Below, piece after piece: positions 8,116 through 45,100 of a DNA stretch of 63,425 nt. The translations under genes were made by a program, and so were the position numbers. The DNA is taken from positions 1 through 63,425 of the forward strand of contig CANRHD010000012.1 in NCBI GenBank assembly GCA_947630285.1, read 5' to 3'. Position 1 is the stretch's first letter, and each line of letters begins with the position of its first letter. Source of the stretch: an uncultured Clostridia bacterium (GTDB lineage Bacteria > Bacillota > Clostridia > Oscillospirales > Acutalibacteraceae). Under the pieces are notes generated by a model, which did no database searches, was not told the DNA's origin, and worked only from the letters and a program-made list of their open reading frames with translations.

Positions 8116-8129
8116 ACAATTACAAAAGC

Positions 8130-8358
8130 GTTTGAGAAAAGACAAGTACCGGGATAAAACCGACCACAGAGAGTACTGTTGCTGAGAAAGTACGCCGGTC
8201 CCCCGGGAATAACACTTTTCGAGCTGCGAGCTGAAAGAATATATTTTAGTAAGCGAGCCGTAAGCCGCGCGTAAGACGGTAAAATCTAAATTTAGATTGA
8301 GTTAAAAAATAGGTGGCACAGCGAGAACAGCACTTGCCCTATTGAATGCTGATTTTTT
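8130..8358 (+). promoter_or_regulatory. T-box riboswitch, asparagine-specific, upstream of asnB
   Basis: The leader has the T-box layout. A Stem I region (about 8130-8240) contains AAC (8211-8213), the asparagine codon, in a specifier-loop position followed by A. The antiterminator at 8310-8343 contains the bulge TGGC (8314-8317), which pairs with the 3' GCCA end of a tRNA having discriminator G73, as tRNA-Asn has. Flanking arms ATAGG/CCTAT and GCGAG/CTTGC close the antiterminator. A competing hairpin CAGCA/TGCTG followed by TTTTTT (8353-8358) would be the terminator. Uncharged tRNA-Asn should raise expression of asnB and the purC-purF genes behind it. The precise 5' end was not determined. 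Confidence 0.85.
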
Positions 8359-38847: not shown

Positions 38848-39876
38848 TTAAAGCATATCGGCCAAGTCCAGTATGAGCTTTTCGGACTTTTCCCAACCGA
38901 GGCAGGCGTCGGTTATTGATTTTCCGTAAACGCCGCCGCCTATCTTTTGACTGCCGTCCTCGATATAGCTTTCTATCATAATTCCCTTGACAAGCTTGTC
39001 TATATCGTCGCTGTAACGCTTGCTTACGATTATTTCCTTTGAAATTCTTATCTGCTGAATAGGGTCTTTGCCCGAATTTGAATGGTTTGCGTCGATTATA
39101 ACGGCCGGGTTTTGAAGTCCGCTTTCCTCATAGACCTCGTAAAGGCGGCGTATATCCTCGTAATGGTAATTGGGTATTGCTCTTCCGCTCTTGCTGACAT
39201 AGCCCCTTAAAATGGCGTGGGCGTAGGGGTTGCCCTCGGAATGAACCTCCCACCCCCTGTAAATAAAGGTGTGCTTATGCTGAGCGGCAGTTATGGAATT
39301 CATCATAACCGAAATATCGCCGCTTGTGGGGTTTTTCATACCTACCGGCACTTCTATGCCGCTTGAAGTAAGCCTGTGCTGTTGGTTTTCAACGCTCCTT
39401 GCGCCTATCGCAACATAGCCCAAAACATCGTCAAGATACCTGTAATTTTCGGGGTAAAGCATCTCGTCGGCGCAGGCAAAGCCCGTTTCCTCCACCGCCT
39501 TCATATGAAGCTCCCTTATTGCGACTATTCCCTTGAACATATCCGGCTTTTGATTGGGATCGGGCTGGTGGAGCATACCCTTGTAGCCGTCGCCGGTGGT
39601 TCTGGGCTTATTGGTATAAATTCTGGGGACAATAAAAATCTTATCCTTTACCTTTTCCTGAACCTCTCTGAGCCTTAATATGTAATCAAGCACGCTGTCG
39701 TCACGGTCGGCGGAGCACGGGCCTATAATAAGCAGAAATTTATCGCTCTCGCCTTTAAAAATCTTTTTAAGCTCCGCCCTTCTGCCGTCTATTGACTGCT
39801 TTGAGGCGGAGGTGAGCGGATACATCTGCTTTACCTCCTGCGGAATGGCAAGCTTCCTTTCAAAAATCATATTCAT
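38848..39876 (-). CDS. aroG: 3-deoxy-7-phosphoheptulonate synthase (DAHP synthase), class I AroG type
   Basis: First step of the shikimate pathway: phosphoenolpyruvate plus erythrose 4-phosphate gives DAHP. The 342-residue protein follows the AroG/AroF/AroH type: LLIIGPCSADRDDSVLDY, PRIYTNKPRTTGDGYKGMLHQPDPN, GARSVENQQHRLTSSG, PVGMKNPTSGD, and VIIDANHSNSGKDP. It lacks any fused chorismate mutase or ACT domain, so feedback control depends on the catalytic domain. The ATG at 39876 is chosen because GGAGG lies 8 bases before it; an upstream TTG overlaps that site. It is the last gene of the operon and follows aroA by 21 bases. The isozyme letter is not certain. Confidence 0.93.
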   Translation of the reverse strand: MNMIFERKLAIPQEVKQMYPLTSASKQSIDGRRAELKKIFKGESDKFLLIIGPCSADRDDSVLDYILRLREVQEKVKDKIFIVPRIYTNKPRTTGDGYKGMLHQPDPNQKPDMFKGIVAIRELHMKAVEETGFACADEMLYPENYRYLDDVLGYVAIGARSVENQQHRLTSSGIEVPVGMKNPTSGDISVMMNSITAAQHKHTFIYRGWEVHSEGNPYAHAILRGYVSKSGRAIPNYHYEDIRRLYEVYEESGLQNPAVIIDANHSNSGKDPIQQIRISKEIIVSKRYSDDIDKLVKGIMIESYIEDGSQKIGGGVYGKSITDACLGWEKSEKLILDLADML

Positions 39877-39897: not shown

Positions 39898-41109
39898 TTA
39901 ATCGTTTAAATAATCTATTTTTACTCCGGATTTAATCATCTGTTCAAAAAAATCGGGGTAGCTTTTTCTTACCGCCTCGGCGCCGTCAAGCTCTCCGCCC
40001 GTGAGCATCAGCAAAAACGCCGTCGCCATTACTATCCTGTGGTCGTTATGGCCGTATATCGTCCGCTCTGGCTTACGCAGACCGCAGGAGCTTATGCGCA
40101 CCTTGTTTTCGCCCTCAAAAAGCTCCGCTCCGAATTTTTCAAGCTCTTCCTTCATACAGGCTATTCTGTCGCTCTCCTTTAGCCTGAGCCTGTCCGTCCC
40201 CGTAAACTCGGCTCCGTAATTTGCCGCACCGAATGCAAAAAGTACGGGCGCAAGATCCGGGCAGTCGGTAACATCAAGCGTACAAAAGCCCTGTTTAAGC
40301 TTTTTAAAATATTCCGTGCAGACCTTATCGCCCTGCCTGCTGTTTTTATCGACTCCGTGAATTTCCAGATTATCGGAGTACTCCTTTAAAGCGTACAGGA
40401 ACGCCGCATTCGACCAGTCTCCCTCAACCGTCAAATTGCAGGGTCTGTATTTCTGCGAGCCCCTGATTTTTATTTCGTTTTCGTTTATTTCCGCTTCGAC
40501 GCCGAATTTATTTATCATATCGGCCGTCATATAGACATAGGGTCTGCTCTCAAACGGCGGTATAATTTTAATTACGCTGTCGCCCTCAAGCTGTGGGAGC
40601 GCAAACATAAGTCCGCTGATAAACTGACTGCTTATGTTGCCCTTTACCTCGAAAGTATCCGCCCTGAGCTTACCGTTTAATTCAACCGTATCTCTGCCGA
40701 CGGCCATTTCAACGCCCTGTTTTCGGCAAATTTCGCTGTAAACGCCCAACGGCCTTGAAATCAGCTTTTCGCTTCCCCTCAAGATCGCACGGCTGTCTGC
40801 AAGCAGGCATATGGGGATAAAAAACCTCAGCGTGCTTCCGCTTTCGCTACAGTAAAGCTCCTCTTTCCCTATCCGTTCAAAATTCTTTATTCCCCTTATT
40901 TTTACCGTGCCGCCCCGAATTTCAACATTACAGCCTATCGCTTTAAGGCAGTTAAGCGTAGCTTCAATATCCTGCGAAAGAGAAATATTTTCAATAACGC
41001 TCTCCCCGTCGCAGAGCCCTGCGCATATAAGCGCCCTGTGAGCCGCACTCTTGGAGGACGGGGCGTATAAATCCCCTTTCGGCAGTGATTTTTCAATTCT
41101 AAGTTTCAT
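39898..41109 (-). CDS. aroA: 3-phosphoshikimate 1-carboxyvinyltransferase (EPSP synthase)
   Basis: Adds the enolpyruvyl group of PEP to shikimate 3-phosphate. The 403-residue protein shows two inverse alpha-beta domains with SSKSAAHRALICAGL near the N-terminus, CSESGSTLRFFIPI, GNISSQFISGLMFALP, GDWSNAAFLYAL, TDCPDLAPVLFAFGA and RLKESDRI, then NDHRIVMATAFL. The Ser-Ala pair in CSESGSTLRF differs from the common NAGT(A/T) of class I, so the glyphosate-sensitivity class is unclear. The ATG at 41109 overlaps the aroQ stop by 11 bases. Confidence 0.94.
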   Translation of the reverse strand: MKLRIEKSLPKGDLYAPSSKSAAHRALICAGLCDGESVIENISLSQDIEATLNCLKAIGCNVEIRGGTVKIRGIKNFERIGKEELYCSESGSTLRFFIPICLLADSRAILRGSEKLISRPLGVYSEICRKQGVEMAVGRDTVELNGKLRADTFEVKGNISSQFISGLMFALPQLEGDSVIKIIPPFESRPYVYMTADMINKFGVEAEINENEIKIRGSQKYRPCNLTVEGDWSNAAFLYALKEYSDNLEIHGVDKNSRQGDKVCTEYFKKLKQGFCTLDVTDCPDLAPVLFAFGAANYGAEFTGTDRLRLKESDRIACMKEELEKFGAELFEGENKVRISSCGLRKPERTIYGHNDHRIVMATAFLLMLTGGELDGAEAVRKSYPDFFEQMIKSGVKIDYLND

Positions 41110-41539
41110 TAGCTTTTTTCTCCGCAAGTAAATCTACCGCTCTCAAATACCCGTCAAAGCCGAGTCCCTTAAAGGTGCCGATGCAGCCGAGGCGTATGTA
41201 GCTTGTTTTTCTGAAATCTTCCCTTTTGTCGGGGTCGGAAATATGCACCTCAACCGTCGGGATACCGACAGCCTTTACTGCGTCGAGCAACGCCACCGAG
41301 GTGTGCGTATATGCCCCGGGGTTGATTACTATGCCGTCAACCTCGCCGTAAGCACGCTGTATACTGTCCACAAGCGCACCCTCGTGATTTGACTGGTAAA
41401 AATCAACCGAAATACCCTTTTCTTCGCAGTATGACCTTATCATACCGCATAAATCGTCATATGTTTCAAAGCCGTAAATCTGCGGTTCTCTTACGCCGAG
41501 CATATTGAGATTGGGGCCGTTAATAACCAAGATTTTCAT
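41099..41539 (-). CDS. aroQ: 3-dehydroquinate dehydratase, type II
   Basis: Dehydrates 3-dehydroquinate to 3-dehydroshikimate. A 146-residue flavodoxin-like protein, the normal type II length: INGPNLNMLGVREPQIYG, YQSNHEGALVDSIQRA, GIVINPGAYTHTSVALLDA, and VEVHISDPDKREDFRKTSYI. It overlaps the end of the aroE-aroK fusion gene by 20 bases and the start of aroA by 11 bases, which indicates tight translational coupling. Confidence 0.95.
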   Translation of the reverse strand: MKILVINGPNLNMLGVREPQIYGFETYDDLCGMIRSYCEEKGISVDFYQSNHEGALVDSIQRAYGEVDGIVINPGAYTHTSVALLDAVKAVGIPTVEVHISDPDKREDFRKTSYIRLGCIGTFKGLGFDGYLRAVDLLAEKKANET

Positions 41540-42776
41540 TTAAAAAATGCTCCTTTTCTATCTGCTTTACAGCGTCGCCGCATATGCCGTTTACCTTAAT
41601 TTTTTTATCCGCCGCGGCAAGATATATGCCTATTCTTTCATCGTACCTTTTTATGATTGCCTCTTTTGTGGAGGCAAGCGGCCTGTCGGAGGTGGGAATT
41701 AGCTGCTGTAACGGCCTGTCCATATAATAAATCGTTCCGTTCATTTTTAGCGCAAGCACATTTTCCTCTCTTAACACCGCTCCGCCGCCCGTTGCGATAA
41801 CCGCTCCCGAAAGCAGGCTGATTTTTTTAATGACCTGCGTTTCCTTATCCCTGAAAGCCGTCTCGCCGAAGCGTTCAAAATAATCGGATATTTCCATACC
41901 CGTCTCTTTTTTTATTTCCTCGTCGGTATCTATAAAAACCCGTCCCGTTTTCTCCGCTGCGGCTTTGCCTATAGTGGTTTTTCCGCTCCCCGGCATACCC
42001 GTCAGGACTATGTTTTTCTTTGAGCTTAGAACGGACGCAAAGATGCTGTCAAGCAAGCCGTCCCGAGCCTTTGTATCCATAAAAATCTCATACGCCTTTA
42101 TCGCCTGCGCCGTAAGCATATAAAGTCCGCCCTGAGCCGGAATACCCATGCGCTCCGCCTCCAGGACAAGCTGTGTAGAAAGCGGATTGTAAACGGCGTC
42201 CGCAACGCCCGAAAGGTTTTTAAAGCGTGAGAGCTCGACGGGGCTTGCAAAAATATCGGGGTACATTCCCACAGGCGTTGTGTTTATTATAACGCCGACG
42301 TCGCCGTGCTTTTCATAGAGCTCGCCGTAAAGCACGGAGTTTTCCTTTCCGCTTCTCGAAGCCCTTAAAATCTCGGCCGCACCAAGACTTTTTGCAACGG
42401 CGGCGGAGGTCTTTGAGGTTCCGCCCGAACCGAGTATTGCGACCTTTTTATTTTTAAGCTCTATATTGTTTTTGTTTAAAAGCGAGGTCATACCGTAAAA
42501 ATCCGTATTGTAGCCGTAAAGCCTGCCCCCACGGTTTACCACCGTGTTGACTGCGCCTATCGCCTTTGCCGTAGGGCTTATTTCATACAAAAACGGTATA
42601 ACCGCCTGTTTATACGGGATTGTAACATTTATTGCCTTAAACTCATGCTTTTCCATAAAGGGACCCAGCTCCTGCTCGCCGAGTTCCTTTAGCTCATACG
42701 AATAAGAACCTATTTTTTCGTGTATTATTTTTGAAAAAGAATGAGGCAGTTTTTTGCCTATGCAACCGTATTCCAT
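41520..42776 (-). CDS. aroE/aroK: Shikimate dehydrogenase/shikimate kinase fusion
   Basis: One 418-residue chain carries two successive shikimate-pathway enzymes. Residues 1 to about 245 are AroE: LPHSFSKIIHEK, NVTIPYK (catalytic Lys56), YGYNTDFYGM (Asp92) and the nucleotide motif LGSGGTSKTSA. Residues about 250-418 are AroK: P-loop GMPGSGKTT (260-268), FIDTDEEIKKETG, FRDKETQVI, and ATGGGAVLREE. The joint lies near residue 248 with a short linker, so reduction of dehydroshikimate and phosphorylation of shikimate are physically linked. Separate genes are more usual. aroB lies 12 bases upstream. Confidence 0.95.
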   Translation of the reverse strand: MEYGCIGKKLPHSFSKIIHEKIGSYSYELKELGEQELGPFMEKHEFKAINVTIPYKQAVIPFLYEISPTAKAIGAVNTVVNRGGRLYGYNTDFYGMTSLLNKNNIELKNKKVAILGSGGTSKTSAAVAKSLGAAEILRASRSGKENSVLYGELYEKHGDVGVIINTTPVGMYPDIFASPVELSRFKNLSGVADAVYNPLSTQLVLEAERMGIPAQGGLYMLTAQAIKAYEIFMDTKARDGLLDSIFASVLSSKKNIVLTGMPGSGKTTIGKAAAEKTGRVFIDTDEEIKKETGMEISDYFERFGETAFRDKETQVIKKISLLSGAVIATGGGAVLREENVLALKMNGTIYYMDRPLQQLIPTSDRPLASTKEAIIKRYDERIGIYLAAADKKIKVNGICGDAVKQIEKEHFLNENLGY

Positions 42777-42788
42777 AATTTTCTCCGT

Positions 42789-43802
42789 TTATTTTTCGGC
42801 AATAACAGACATAAGATTTTTTATTTCGTCCAAGGGAAGCTTTTTAATTTCATAGCTTCCGATTTCTTTTACAAATACAGCGTTGATATAATCTTTTCTC
42901 ATCTTTTTGTCGTGAACTGCGGCGGAAAAGGCGGAATTGACATCAAGCGGAATTTCGGTTTTCAAATTTAGCTTTTTAAGCACGGGGACAAGCCTTTCCC
43001 TGACGCTTTGACTGCACATGGGGATCATTCCCAGCGCAACACATTCCCCGTGAAAAAGCCCGTTTAGCTCCTCCTCGCTCTCAACCGCATGGCCTATTGT
43101 ATGGCCGAAGTTAAGAACCATACGAAGCCCGGCTTCCTTTTCGTCCTGCTCAACTACTTTCCTCTTAATTTCTATCGCCCTGAACAGAATTTCCTCTATA
43201 TTTTCAACTGCGTCCTCTTTTTCAAAAAGCTCAAACAGCTCCCTGTCAAAGGTCAGGCTCATTTTTACCGCCTCGGCAAGGCCGTTTGAAAATTGCCTTT
43301 CGGGTAAAGTCTTTAAAACATCGGGGTCGATGATAACCGCTTTCGGCTGGTGAAAAGCGCCGACCGTATTCTTTATGCCGTCAAGGTCAACGGCGGTTTT
43401 TCCGCCAATGGAAGAGTCAACCTGCGAAAGTACTGTGGTGGGGAAATTGTAAAAGTCAATTCCCCTCATATAGCAGGCGGAAACAAAGCCTGCAAGATCT
43501 CCGGGCACTCCGCCGCCGCAGGCGACAACGCAGTCGTTCCTCGTAAAATTATTTTTAAGCATAAACGAGAGTATTTCGCCGAAGCAGGTAAGATTTTTAC
43601 TCGCTTCGCCCTCTTTTACGGTATAAATCAGCGCATTCTCAAACTGCGAGGCTATACGCTCGGCGTACTGCCTCGGAACTCCGCTGTCCGTAACTATCAA
43701 AAGCCTTGAATTGATACCGCTCAGCTCTCTGAATTTGTTTATTGCACTGCGCTCTATAATAATATCGTAGCTGTCTGCGCCCAAATTAACATGAGTTTTC
43801 AT
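42789..43802 (-). CDS. aroB: 3-dehydroquinate synthase
   Basis: Cyclises DAHP to 3-dehydroquinate with NAD as catalytic cofactor and a divalent metal. The 337-residue protein contains VACGGGVPGDLAGFVSACYMRGIDF, PTTVLSQVDSSIGGKTAVDL, the KNTVGAFHQPKAVIIDPDVLKTLP block, GLAEAVKMSL, and LNFGHTIGHAVE with a metal-binding His. The C-terminal part is slightly shorter than in Escherichia coli. It follows pheA by 11 bases. Confidence 0.95.
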   Translation of the reverse strand: MKTHVNLGADSYDIIIERSAINKFRELSGINSRLLIVTDSGVPRQYAERIASQFENALIYTVKEGEASKNLTCFGEILSFMLKNNFTRNDCVVACGGGVPGDLAGFVSACYMRGIDFYNFPTTVLSQVDSSIGGKTAVDLDGIKNTVGAFHQPKAVIIDPDVLKTLPERQFSNGLAEAVKMSLTFDRELFELFEKEDAVENIEEILFRAIEIKRKVVEQDEKEAGLRMVLNFGHTIGHAVESEEELNGLFHGECVALGMIPMCSQSVRERLVPVLKKLNLKTEIPLDVNSAFSAAVHDKKMRKDYINAVFVKEIGSYEIKKLPLDEIKNLMSVIAEK

Positions 43803-43813
43803 ATTTTCACCCG

Positions 43814-44902
43814 TCAGATAGTTTTTTTAGCCGAATAGTGGCCTGCAATTTTGAGCTTTTCACAGCAGACGGAAAGCTCCTTCATCATACGCTGCCCCTC
43901 CTCGGAATTTCTGTCGCCGTCGGCCTCCACATAAAAATAGTACTGCCACGGAACATTTTTGACGGGGCGGCTTCTCAAAATTCTCATATTAAAGCCGTGA
44001 GCGCAGATTATATTTACCGCCTTTGCAAGCGCTCCGACCTCATCATTTACCGTAAACAGGAGAATAAACCTCTCGTTATCGGGCGAATTTTGTGCGGACG
44101 AACGGGAGAATACCGCAAACCTTGTGGTGTTGACTGCGCTCTCGTTTATATCGTGGTCGATTACCTCAAGCCCGTAAAGCTCCGCCGTCTCTTTGCTGGC
44201 GATTGCGGCAACCGATTTTTCATTGAGCGACGCAACCTTTTTTGCCGCAAATGCCGTATTTGCCGCCTGCTCTTTGAAAAATCCGTGTTCGTTAATATAC
44301 ACATTGCATTGCGAAAGCGCCTGCGGATGGCTGATTACCGTTTTAACATCTTTTATGCCGGCGCCCCTTATGCCGATAAGGTTCTGCTTTACCTGCATAT
44401 CGTACACGCCGTTTACTGAAAGGTCGCCCTCGAACATAAGGTCGATTACCTGACCCACTTCCCCGGCATAGCTGTTTTCTATAGGCAGTACACAGCAGTC
44501 GCAGTCGCCCTCAAGCACGGCGTTGTATGCGCCCGAAAAGTCGCCGAACGCAACCGTCCTGCCGTAGGGAAAAATTTTCTTTGAGGCAATTTCGGCAAAT
44601 GCGCCCTCCGTTCCGCAAAAGGCTATTTTCAGACCCTTTAAAAGGCTCTCCTGATATTTTTTTGAAACGCCGATAAACGAGCGCAAAAAAGTATCGTAAT
44701 ACCCTTTAAGGCTGTCGTTTTTAAGCGACGCCACATTTTTTGATATTATCTTTTTTTCTCTTTCCTCATCGAATATGGGCAGACCGTTTTTCGCCTTATA
44801 CTCCGCAACGAGCTTAACGGCGTCCATTCTTTTTTCAAAAAGCCCGGCAATTTCCCTGTCGGTTTCGTCAATAATCTGCCTCGCCTTTTCAAGCTCTGTC
44901 AT
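43814..44902 (-). CDS. pheA: Bifunctional chorismate mutase/prephenate dehydratase (P-protein)
   Basis: Takes chorismate to prephenate and then phenylpyruvate for phenylalanine. Residues 1 to about 85 are an AroQ-type chorismate mutase (ARQIIDETDREIAGLFEKRMDAVKLVAEYK). Residues about 105-280 are prephenate dehydratase (FCGTEGAFAEIASKKIFP, VLPIENSYAGEVGQVIDLM, and NTTRFAVFSR with the catalytic Thr). Residues about 290-362 are an ACT domain (ILLFTVNDEVGALAKAV, MRILRSRPVK) that normally binds phenylalanine for feedback control. The ATG at 44902 follows AAAGGTG. The gene is first in the aromatic operon and lies behind a leader peptide and terminator. The operon contains no tyrA. Confidence 0.95.
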   Translation of the reverse strand: MTELEKARQIIDETDREIAGLFEKRMDAVKLVAEYKAKNGLPIFDEEREKKIISKNVASLKNDSLKGYYDTFLRSFIGVSKKYQESLLKGLKIAFCGTEGAFAEIASKKIFPYGRTVAFGDFSGAYNAVLEGDCDCCVLPIENSYAGEVGQVIDLMFEGDLSVNGVYDMQVKQNLIGIRGAGIKDVKTVISHPQALSQCNVYINEHGFFKEQAANTAFAAKKVASLNEKSVAAIASKETAELYGLEVIDHDINESAVNTTRFAVFSRSSAQNSPDNERFILLFTVNDEVGALAKAVNIICAHGFNMRILRSRPVKNVPWQYYFYVEADGDRNSEEGQRMMKELSVCCEKLKIAGHYSAKKTI

Positions 44903-44923: not shown

Positions 44924-44959
44924 AAAAAAACACCACTTAAACATAACGAATAAGTGGTG
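44924..44959 (-). terminator. Intrinsic terminator in the pheA leader (attenuator)
   Basis: On the minus strand CACCACTTA (44959-44951) pairs with TAAGTGGTG (44939-44931) around an 11-nt loop, followed by seven T (44930-44924). It lies between a Phe/Tyr-rich leader peptide and pheA. A competing pairing exists: GTGATGG in leader codons 13-15 matches CCACCAC in the 5' arm of the terminator at six of seven positions, so a ribosome stalled earlier would favour antitermination. Confidence 0.8.
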
Positions 44960-44994
44960 GAGTAATCATTAAAGCCGAAAAATGCAAATAATGT

Positions 44995-45042
44995 TTATTC
45001 CATCACGCTACTAAAGATAAAGTAATAACGCTTTTTAAACAT
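44995..45042 (-). CDS. pheL: Phe/Tyr-rich attenuator leader peptide
   Basis: A 15-codon frame reads MFKKRYYFIFSSVME, with three Phe and two Tyr in the first ten residues. AAAGGAG lies 8 bases before its ATG, the operon promoter lies 30-58 bases upstream, and a terminator follows 36 bases after its stop codon. All elements needed for ribosome-mediated attenuation are therefore present in the correct order. Stalling at codons 6-10 when charged tRNA-Phe (or Tyr) is scarce should leave codons 13-15 free to block the terminator stem. The symbol is by functional analogy to enterobacterial pheL; there is no sequence homology. Confidence 0.75.
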   Translation of the reverse strand: MFKKRYYFIFSSVME

Positions 45043-45071
45043 TATAAGCACTCCTTTCAAAACTTTTTAAC

Positions 45072-45100
45072 ATTTTACTACCGATTTAAAGTATTGTCAA
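45072..45100 (-). promoter_or_regulatory. Promoter of the pheA-aro operon
   Basis: Read on the minus strand: TTGACA (45100-45095), 17-nt spacer, TAAAAT (45077-45072). Transcription should begin near 45065, about 23 bases before the leader-peptide ATG. Confidence 0.8.

Follow-up and report, generated by a model that had tools for sequence, protein, structure and literature searches.

Ahead of pheA, on the minus strand of the window (by which we mean the whole stretch of 63,425 nt analysed here), a short ORF rich in Phe and Tyr codons is followed by an intrinsic terminator, and the question is whether a ribosome translating this ORF decides on the transcription of the aromatic genes downstream. 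In the usual picture, the amino-acid operons of Firmicutes are controlled by T-boxes and by TRAP, a protein that binds repeated GAG/UAG triplets in the leaders under its control, and ribosome stalling is left to the enterobacteria. The features considered were the following.

45095..45100, minus strand: -35 hexamer TTGACA (read from the sequence; promoter scan)
45072..45077, minus strand: -10 hexamer TAAAAT, with a spacer of 17 nt (read from the sequence; promoter scan)
45051..45057, minus strand: Shine-Dalgarno (SD) sequence AAAGGAG, belonging to the leader ORF (read from the sequence)
44995..45042, minus strand: leader ORF MFKKRYYFIFSSVME, 15 codons from the ATG at 45042 to the TAA at 44995 (from the sequence; one of 27 type A leaders)
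45033..45064, minus strand: 5′ strand of helix P1, i.e. the SD and start-codon region, with its partner at 44978-44997 (fold and comparison)
44978..44997, minus strand: 3′ strand of P1, TAAACATTATTTGCATTTTT, its first base at the leader stop codon (fold and comparison)
44998..45006, minus strand: putative antiterminator element GTGATGGAA, 6 nt past the last Phe codon (comparison and covariation)
44954..44965, minus strand: TTACTCCACCAC, the partner of the element, overlapping the 5′ arm of the terminator (covariation)
44924..44959, minus strand: intrinsic terminator, stem of 9 bp, loop of 11 nt, T7 (sequence and fold)
43814..44902, minus strand: pheA, chorismate mutase-prephenate dehydratase, ATG at 44902 (NCBIfam match)
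42789..43802, minus strand: aroB (NCBIfam match)
41520..42776, minus strand: aroE-aroK fusion, shikimate dehydrogenase and shikimate kinase in one ORF (NCBIfam match)
41099..41539, minus strand: aroQ, type II dehydroquinate dehydratase (NCBIfam match)
39898..41109, minus strand: aroA, start uncertain (NCBIfam match)
38848..39876, minus strand: aroG, an aroFGH-type DAHP synthase, start uncertain (NCBIfam match)

The leader in the window and its level above chance

The sequence-only reading had described a promoter, an SD site, a 15-codon ORF, a 9-bp terminator with its T7 and pheA, in this order, and re-reading the sequence confirmed this layout to the base. The Phe/Tyr codons of the ORF are codons 2, 6, 7, 8 and 10, and in the order of the minus strand ATGTTTAAAAAGCGTTATTACTTTATCTTTAGTAGCGTGATGGAATAA stands between AAAGGAG and the 9-bp stem. 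The terminator arms are CACCACTTA (44959-44951) and TAAGTGGTG (44939-44931), with the T7 at 44930-44924. The pairing proposed earlier between GTGATGG and CCACCAC does hold at 6 of 7 positions, and the match between element and arm is in fact longer, GTGATGGAATAA with TTACTCCACCAC, at 10 of 12. The leader has a short, SD-led ORF rich in codons for the products of the pathway, an intrinsic terminator between this ORF and the first structural gene, and a predicted antiterminator that uses the 5′ arm of the terminator.

The consensus promoter scan returned 2 promoter-like sites versus 1.9 expected, i.e. chance level, and omitted the pheA-leader terminator from its list, probably because the loop of 11 nt exceeds the 8-nt limit of the scan. 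The leader folds at -36.5 kcal/mol (z -4.0), a value as good being found in 0/200 shuffles. It is by its fold, and above all by its relatives, that the leader stands above chance, the consensus scan alone being unimpressive.

For the relatives we used 80 named PheA loci. Most come from metagenome assemblies, and their labels include Oscillospiraceae, Ruminococcaceae, Lachnospiraceae and Clostridia; three are labelled Treponema or Spirochaetaceae. A strict detector, requiring an SD and at least 5 F/Y within 8 codons, found an aromatic leader before pheA in 28/80 of these loci, versus 2/227 of their other intergenic regions and 6/1600 shuffles; one of the two control regions so flagged holds a true leader, before aroB. 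The leader of the window, with 4 F/Y in 8 codons, and its near-twin L041 both lie below the threshold of this detector.

A T-box or another Rfam RNA at the pheA leader was considered as well and rejected, since the Rfam 15 scan of this site gave no covariance-model match at E ≤1, T-box RF00230 and Leu/phe leader RF01743 included; at gathering score, no family matched in the window. The gathering-score scan of 16 and 6 leader loci returned only tRNA and HEARO, the HEARO match (L064:4779-5021) being cut by the end of its stretch.

Distribution and anatomy of the type A leader

Seven further genus genomes have full-length PheA orthologues of ≥75% identity, and the leader precedes pheA in 7/7, with promoter-like hexamers, SD and terminator all visible and with leader peptides such as MFKKRYYFIFSNVME, MFFNCYFYYYFISAID, MFFYRYYYFFISAID and MFFYCYYFYFFKNAID. 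Among these genus relatives Phe and Tyr interchange freely and the aromatic class is kept. Relatives with the terminator still in place but with the ORF, or the aromatic codons in it, gone would speak against control by leader translation; the check showed the opposite, the codons and the pairing between element and terminator being kept while peptide and sequence have changed.

A model of the leader (R1) matched in 8/39 genomes of the genus, each time in single copy and at pheA, and gave no match in the other 31/39. Over the order it was found in 5/394 genomes, a lower bound because this search used strict filters. Among the 80 PheA loci it matched 26, of which 25 before pheA and one, L096 (922-1060), before an aroB-like gene; 21 of these matches belong to the model, four are near-duplicates that had been dropped, and L066 carries the same leader peptide as L057. 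The idea that the leader is a general feature of pheA was rejected, the strict detector being positive in 0/12 pheA genes within tight operons. Directly upstream of pheA, a leader was found in 0/20 relatives with divergent PheA, three flagged ORFs lying ~1.2 kb upstream. The leader may head the operon instead, as in G030 and G048 (before aroF-pheA) and in L096 (before aroB).

The type A set consists of 27 leaders, including that of the window, gathered by having the element. After near-duplicates (L041, L044, L052, L054) were dropped, 23/27 were kept for permutations, covariation, P1 and codon counts. In these 23 leaders, F/Y codons make up 154/221 codons in frame versus 35 and 47 of 221 off frame, 23 of the 154 being anchor codons counted by construction, as the run was anchored on its last aromatic codon. 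From Met to the last aromatic codon 163/243 codons are F/Y (82 Y, 81 F) and none is Trp; after the run, F/Y codons are 8/263. The residues A-M-D/E recur after the run among type A leaders.

Precisely, the run ends with the Phe codon TTT in 27/27 leaders, and the element, GCGATGGA or a variant of it, begins exactly 6 nt after this codon in 25/27, the exceptions being L053 (7 nt) and L056 (12 nt). An independent match found later, L125, also breaks this ruler, its run ending with TAT and its spacer being of 9 nt. The element of L053 stands in a different reading frame, which points to selection on the RNA and not on the peptide.

The element and the 5′ arm of the terminator change together: the window has the pair GTGATGG/CCACCAC, six leaders of its genus have GCGATTGA/TCAACCGC, and many others have GCGATGGA/TCCACCGC. 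Over the 23 leaders, cognate partners pair at -13.2 kcal/mol versus -9.6 for swapped ones (0/20000 permutations), in a comparison that removes the relatedness among leaders only in part, as is the case for all the swapped-partner tests. Element and arm are paired in 83.6% of cells versus 28-51% when slid, and both the number of cells changed on both sides (13) and the covariation score were reached by 0/500 shuffles. Two weaker measures were ordinary, namely the number of pairs with two-sided changes (29/500 shuffles got as far) and that of further pair types (221/500). One internal mismatch, A.C, is kept in 22/23.

P1, which joins the SD and start-codon region to the 3′ end of the ORF, showed the largest gain of cognate over swapped partners (-17.8 versus -12.5; 0/20000 permutations, 23 leaders); it beats shuffled partners at p<0.05 in 16/23 leaders, and in 18/23 two or more nt of the start codon are part of the helix. 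Five control segment pairings showed no cognate preference in the same test on the 23 leaders. The fold of the window also contains a textbook-like 1:2 hairpin, in which Tyr codons pair with GTGATG. It is without covariation in type A, and as a conserved 1:2 stem of this type it was rejected (FY codons with element, 14948/20000 permutations). P1 may take the place of the 1:2 hairpin of control codons with region 2.

Proposed mechanism and rival explanations

The in-frame codons and the covarying pairing between element and arm support, by comparison of sequences, the earlier reading of a Phe/Tyr attenuator mediated by the ribosome, and we hold it very probable that the leader acts in this way, reading charged tRNA-Phe and tRNA-Tyr. 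A ribosome stalled at a Phe or Tyr codon would leave the element free, the free element would pair with the 5′ arm of the terminator, and RNA polymerase would read through. With the last Phe codon in the A site, the 6-nt spacer would set the first base of the element approximately at the leading edge of the ribosome, given its usual footprint. A ribosome that decodes the whole run would move onto the element, and the terminator would form. When the leader is untranslated, P1 would pen the element in its loop, and it would also block further initiation.

The sequence-only reading had assigned the covering of the element to a ribosome at the stop codon. This part stands for the window and its nearest relatives (8/27), in which the stop lies 9 nt after the start of the element, so that the terminator would form. 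It does not stand for 16/27 type A leaders, whose stop is at least 30 nt beyond the element; a terminating ribosome would not cover the element there, and this is the weak point of the mechanism. In these leaders a ribosome that has reached the stop would occupy the stretch between element and arm or, alternatively, P1 would pen the element once the ribosome is released.

We considered three other explanations. The ORF could be incidental, pheA having a constitutive attenuator, or an antiterminator that binds a factor, behind a tract that only mimics Phe/Tyr codons; the tract is indeed T/A-rich and the inner 1:2 helix of the window is not conserved, but F/Y codons are concentrated in frame (154/221 versus 35 and 47), SD-led aromatic ORFs precede pheA in 28/80 loci versus 2/227 controls, and F and Y swap freely with the aromatic class kept. 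We regard this explanation as very improbable. Slightly less credit still is given to an erm-type signal, i.e. arrest by the nascent aromatic peptide or a general slowing of translation instead of amino-acid starvation: the peptide varies and only the codon class is constant, L053 carries the same RNA in a different reading frame, and the genes downstream are those of aromatic biosynthesis, all of which has to be set against the density of the run and the recurrence of A-M-D/E after it.

The strength of P1, with the largest cognate gain and with two or more nt of the start codon in the helix in 18/23 leaders, would suit an explanation in which translation of the leader acts mainly through P1, on translation initiation or on RNA stability, and the terminator is background. 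However, the pairing of element and arm covaries too and excludes the terminator, and we judge this explanation as improbable as peptide arrest. If the attenuator reading is right, the spacing of 6 nt makes it possible to test cleanly whether the ribosome footprint serves as a ruler in regulation.

Other leaders in the order and known systems

A second leader, which we call type D, is present in the same genome (L164:120-500, contig G000:C13). It is Tyr-rich (MSKRRLTAVYYYYRFIVHSVR), has promoter-like hexamers and an SD, and precedes aroF-tyrA-aroC, this aroF being a DAHP synthase of B. subtilis type. Its fold (z -3.9) contains a hairpin of the Tyr codons plus a terminator, and the antiterminator pairing, read by eye, is AGTGAATTTC with GAAATTCACT. 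This aroF is present in 27/39 genomes of the genus; an aromatic ORF with a strong terminator precedes it in 26/27 when no SD rule is applied (the relatives are L167-L193, and G035 has none), and an aromatic ORF in 23/27 with the SD rule.

For the pairing tests, 22/26 type D leaders were kept, L172, L180, L181 and L184 being dropped. Element and arm are paired in 99.4% of cells versus 20-54% when slid. The swap test of this pairing was weak within the genus (1229/20000), because element and arm are both conserved; for 14 non-genus leaders the result was 0/20000, either alone or together with 9 of the 22 genus leaders, in a set whose elements were selected with a rule based on a short motif. The segment that precedes the run also pairs with the element (region 2), in 84.7% of cells versus 21-51% when slid and at -11.0 for cognate versus -8.9 for swapped partners (0/20000 permutations). 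Column covariation of this helix is modest: 33/500 shuffles reached its score, and two of six slid versions scored higher.

A type D model (R2) matched 98/394 genomes of the order at E ≤0.01, six of them genus genomes, with rough E-values and with some weak matches that resemble plain hairpins matched on both strands. The best-scoring 14 loci outside the genus have an aromatic ORF in 14/14 and an SD-like site in 13/14; the next gene, judged by eye, is a DAHP synthase in 11 and tyrA in one, and one locus ends at the contig edge.

Among the genus genomes, 23 have pheA 4.2-4.4 kb downstream of aroF, both genes sharing contig and strand; 22 of these have a leader, with a mixed Phe/Tyr run in 21 and YYYY in G026. 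The aroF leader reads YYYY, one other codon, F in G000 and G001, whose pheA sits on a different contig and has a leader of its own, and likewise in G036, which is incomplete. A mixed Phe/Tyr run is found in G028, with pheA on another contig. The codons of the leader track the content of the operon, and as G000, G001 and G036 are close by their aroF (87-90%), their YYYY leader is probably a single evolutionary event.

Type C is represented by four loci, G020, G030, G048 and G073 (L010, L011, L013, L018), with the element GCTGCCCG or GCTGCTCG and the partner CG[G/A]ACAGTCC, unrelated to the type A element. Here the first base of the shared motif GCTG comes 7 nt after the last TTT in 4/4, or the element starts at 6 nt if the preceding G or C is counted in it. 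Type B comprises 17 loci (L067, L069-L072, L076-L078, L081, L085, L086, L094, L095, L097, L098, L107, L111) with a common terminator motif, CGGTTCT[A/G]TT, and with aromatic leaders seen by eye. This motif is common to Clostridia and to three loci labelled Treponema/Spirochaetaceae, between which the leader possibly moved together with pheA.

Like the pheA, trp and his attenuators of enterobacteria, the type A leader has a short ORF that contains codons for the end product, an antiterminator and a terminator that exclude each other, and a biosynthetic operon downstream. It differs from them in the place of its element, which falls within the ORF or at its end and in most cases 6 nt after the last Phe codon, and in its locking helix, which joins the SD and start codon to the 3′ end of the ORF. 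Attenuation of the classical kind depends on a ribosome closely coupled to RNA polymerase, and whether such coupling exists in Firmicutes is disputed; an attenuator system across an order, if true, would be indirect evidence of coupling there.

That such a leader is unexpected in Firmicutes, as the sequence-only reading had it, is too strong, since his and ilv leaders are reported, one before aroF has been suggested in Acholeplasma, and leaders of this kind look common in this order. Ribosome-mediated attenuation is described for the His leader before hisZ/hisS* in bacilli (PMC2965389), and leader attenuators for his operons of Firmicutes (PMC9413887) and for ilv-leu of S. aureus (PMC5794164). 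By these descriptions they resemble the present leaders in using ribosome-mediated attenuation, replacing or beside T-boxes, and differ in the amino acids and genes concerned. uORFC-13-1, before aroF in Acholeplasma, is a Phe-coding uORF with a terminator for which an attenuator was suggested (PMC8632094); by description it is alike in having uORF and terminator ahead of an aromatic gene, and differs in its host, Acholeplasma, and in a content given as at least one Phe codon. The Leu/phe leader RF01743 of Lactococcus lactis is a named Firmicute leader motif (PMC2864571), which differs from the window site in that the latter does not match it at E ≤1. A literature search, mostly among papers free of subscription, returned no report of Phe/Tyr leaders ahead of the pheA or aroF genes of Clostridia, which does not prove that there is none. 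Leader attenuation is known in Firmicutes, and the Phe/Tyr leaders of pheA and aroF in Clostridia appear to be a further form of it.

Over the whole order we propose, tentatively and with slightly less than even confidence, that ribosome-mediated attenuation may be the regular way of controlling the shikimate and Phe/Tyr pathway, and no exception. It would be built on unrelated RNA designs (A, C, D and perhaps B), with the leading edge of the ribosome as the ruler in A and C (TTT plus 6-7 nt), with codons retuned with the operon (Phe and Tyr if aroF is followed by pheA, mostly Tyr if pheA is separate), and with the leader turned by P1 into a one-shot sensor that the pioneering ribosome reads, trp genes and synthetases being left to T-boxes. 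Two RNA sensors appear to split one pathway within one genome, and the choice between them becomes testable.

As regards the other amino-acid genes of this genome, hisG follows another ORF with an overlap, and an ilvB-like match lies far below its cut-off. T-box matches are 12, of which 7 over the cut-off and none at the pheA leader. Among the genes downstream of T-boxes, NCBIfam identifies tyrS and one that resembles 2-isopropylmalate synthase, and trpE, asnS and cysE were judged by eye from translations; below the cut-off, again by eye, they are pheS, valS, thrS and asnB. The T-box-like match before asnB, an asparagine-synthase-like gene, is in the window itself, at 8122-8344 on the plus strand, and scores 81.6 bits versus a cut-off of 93.
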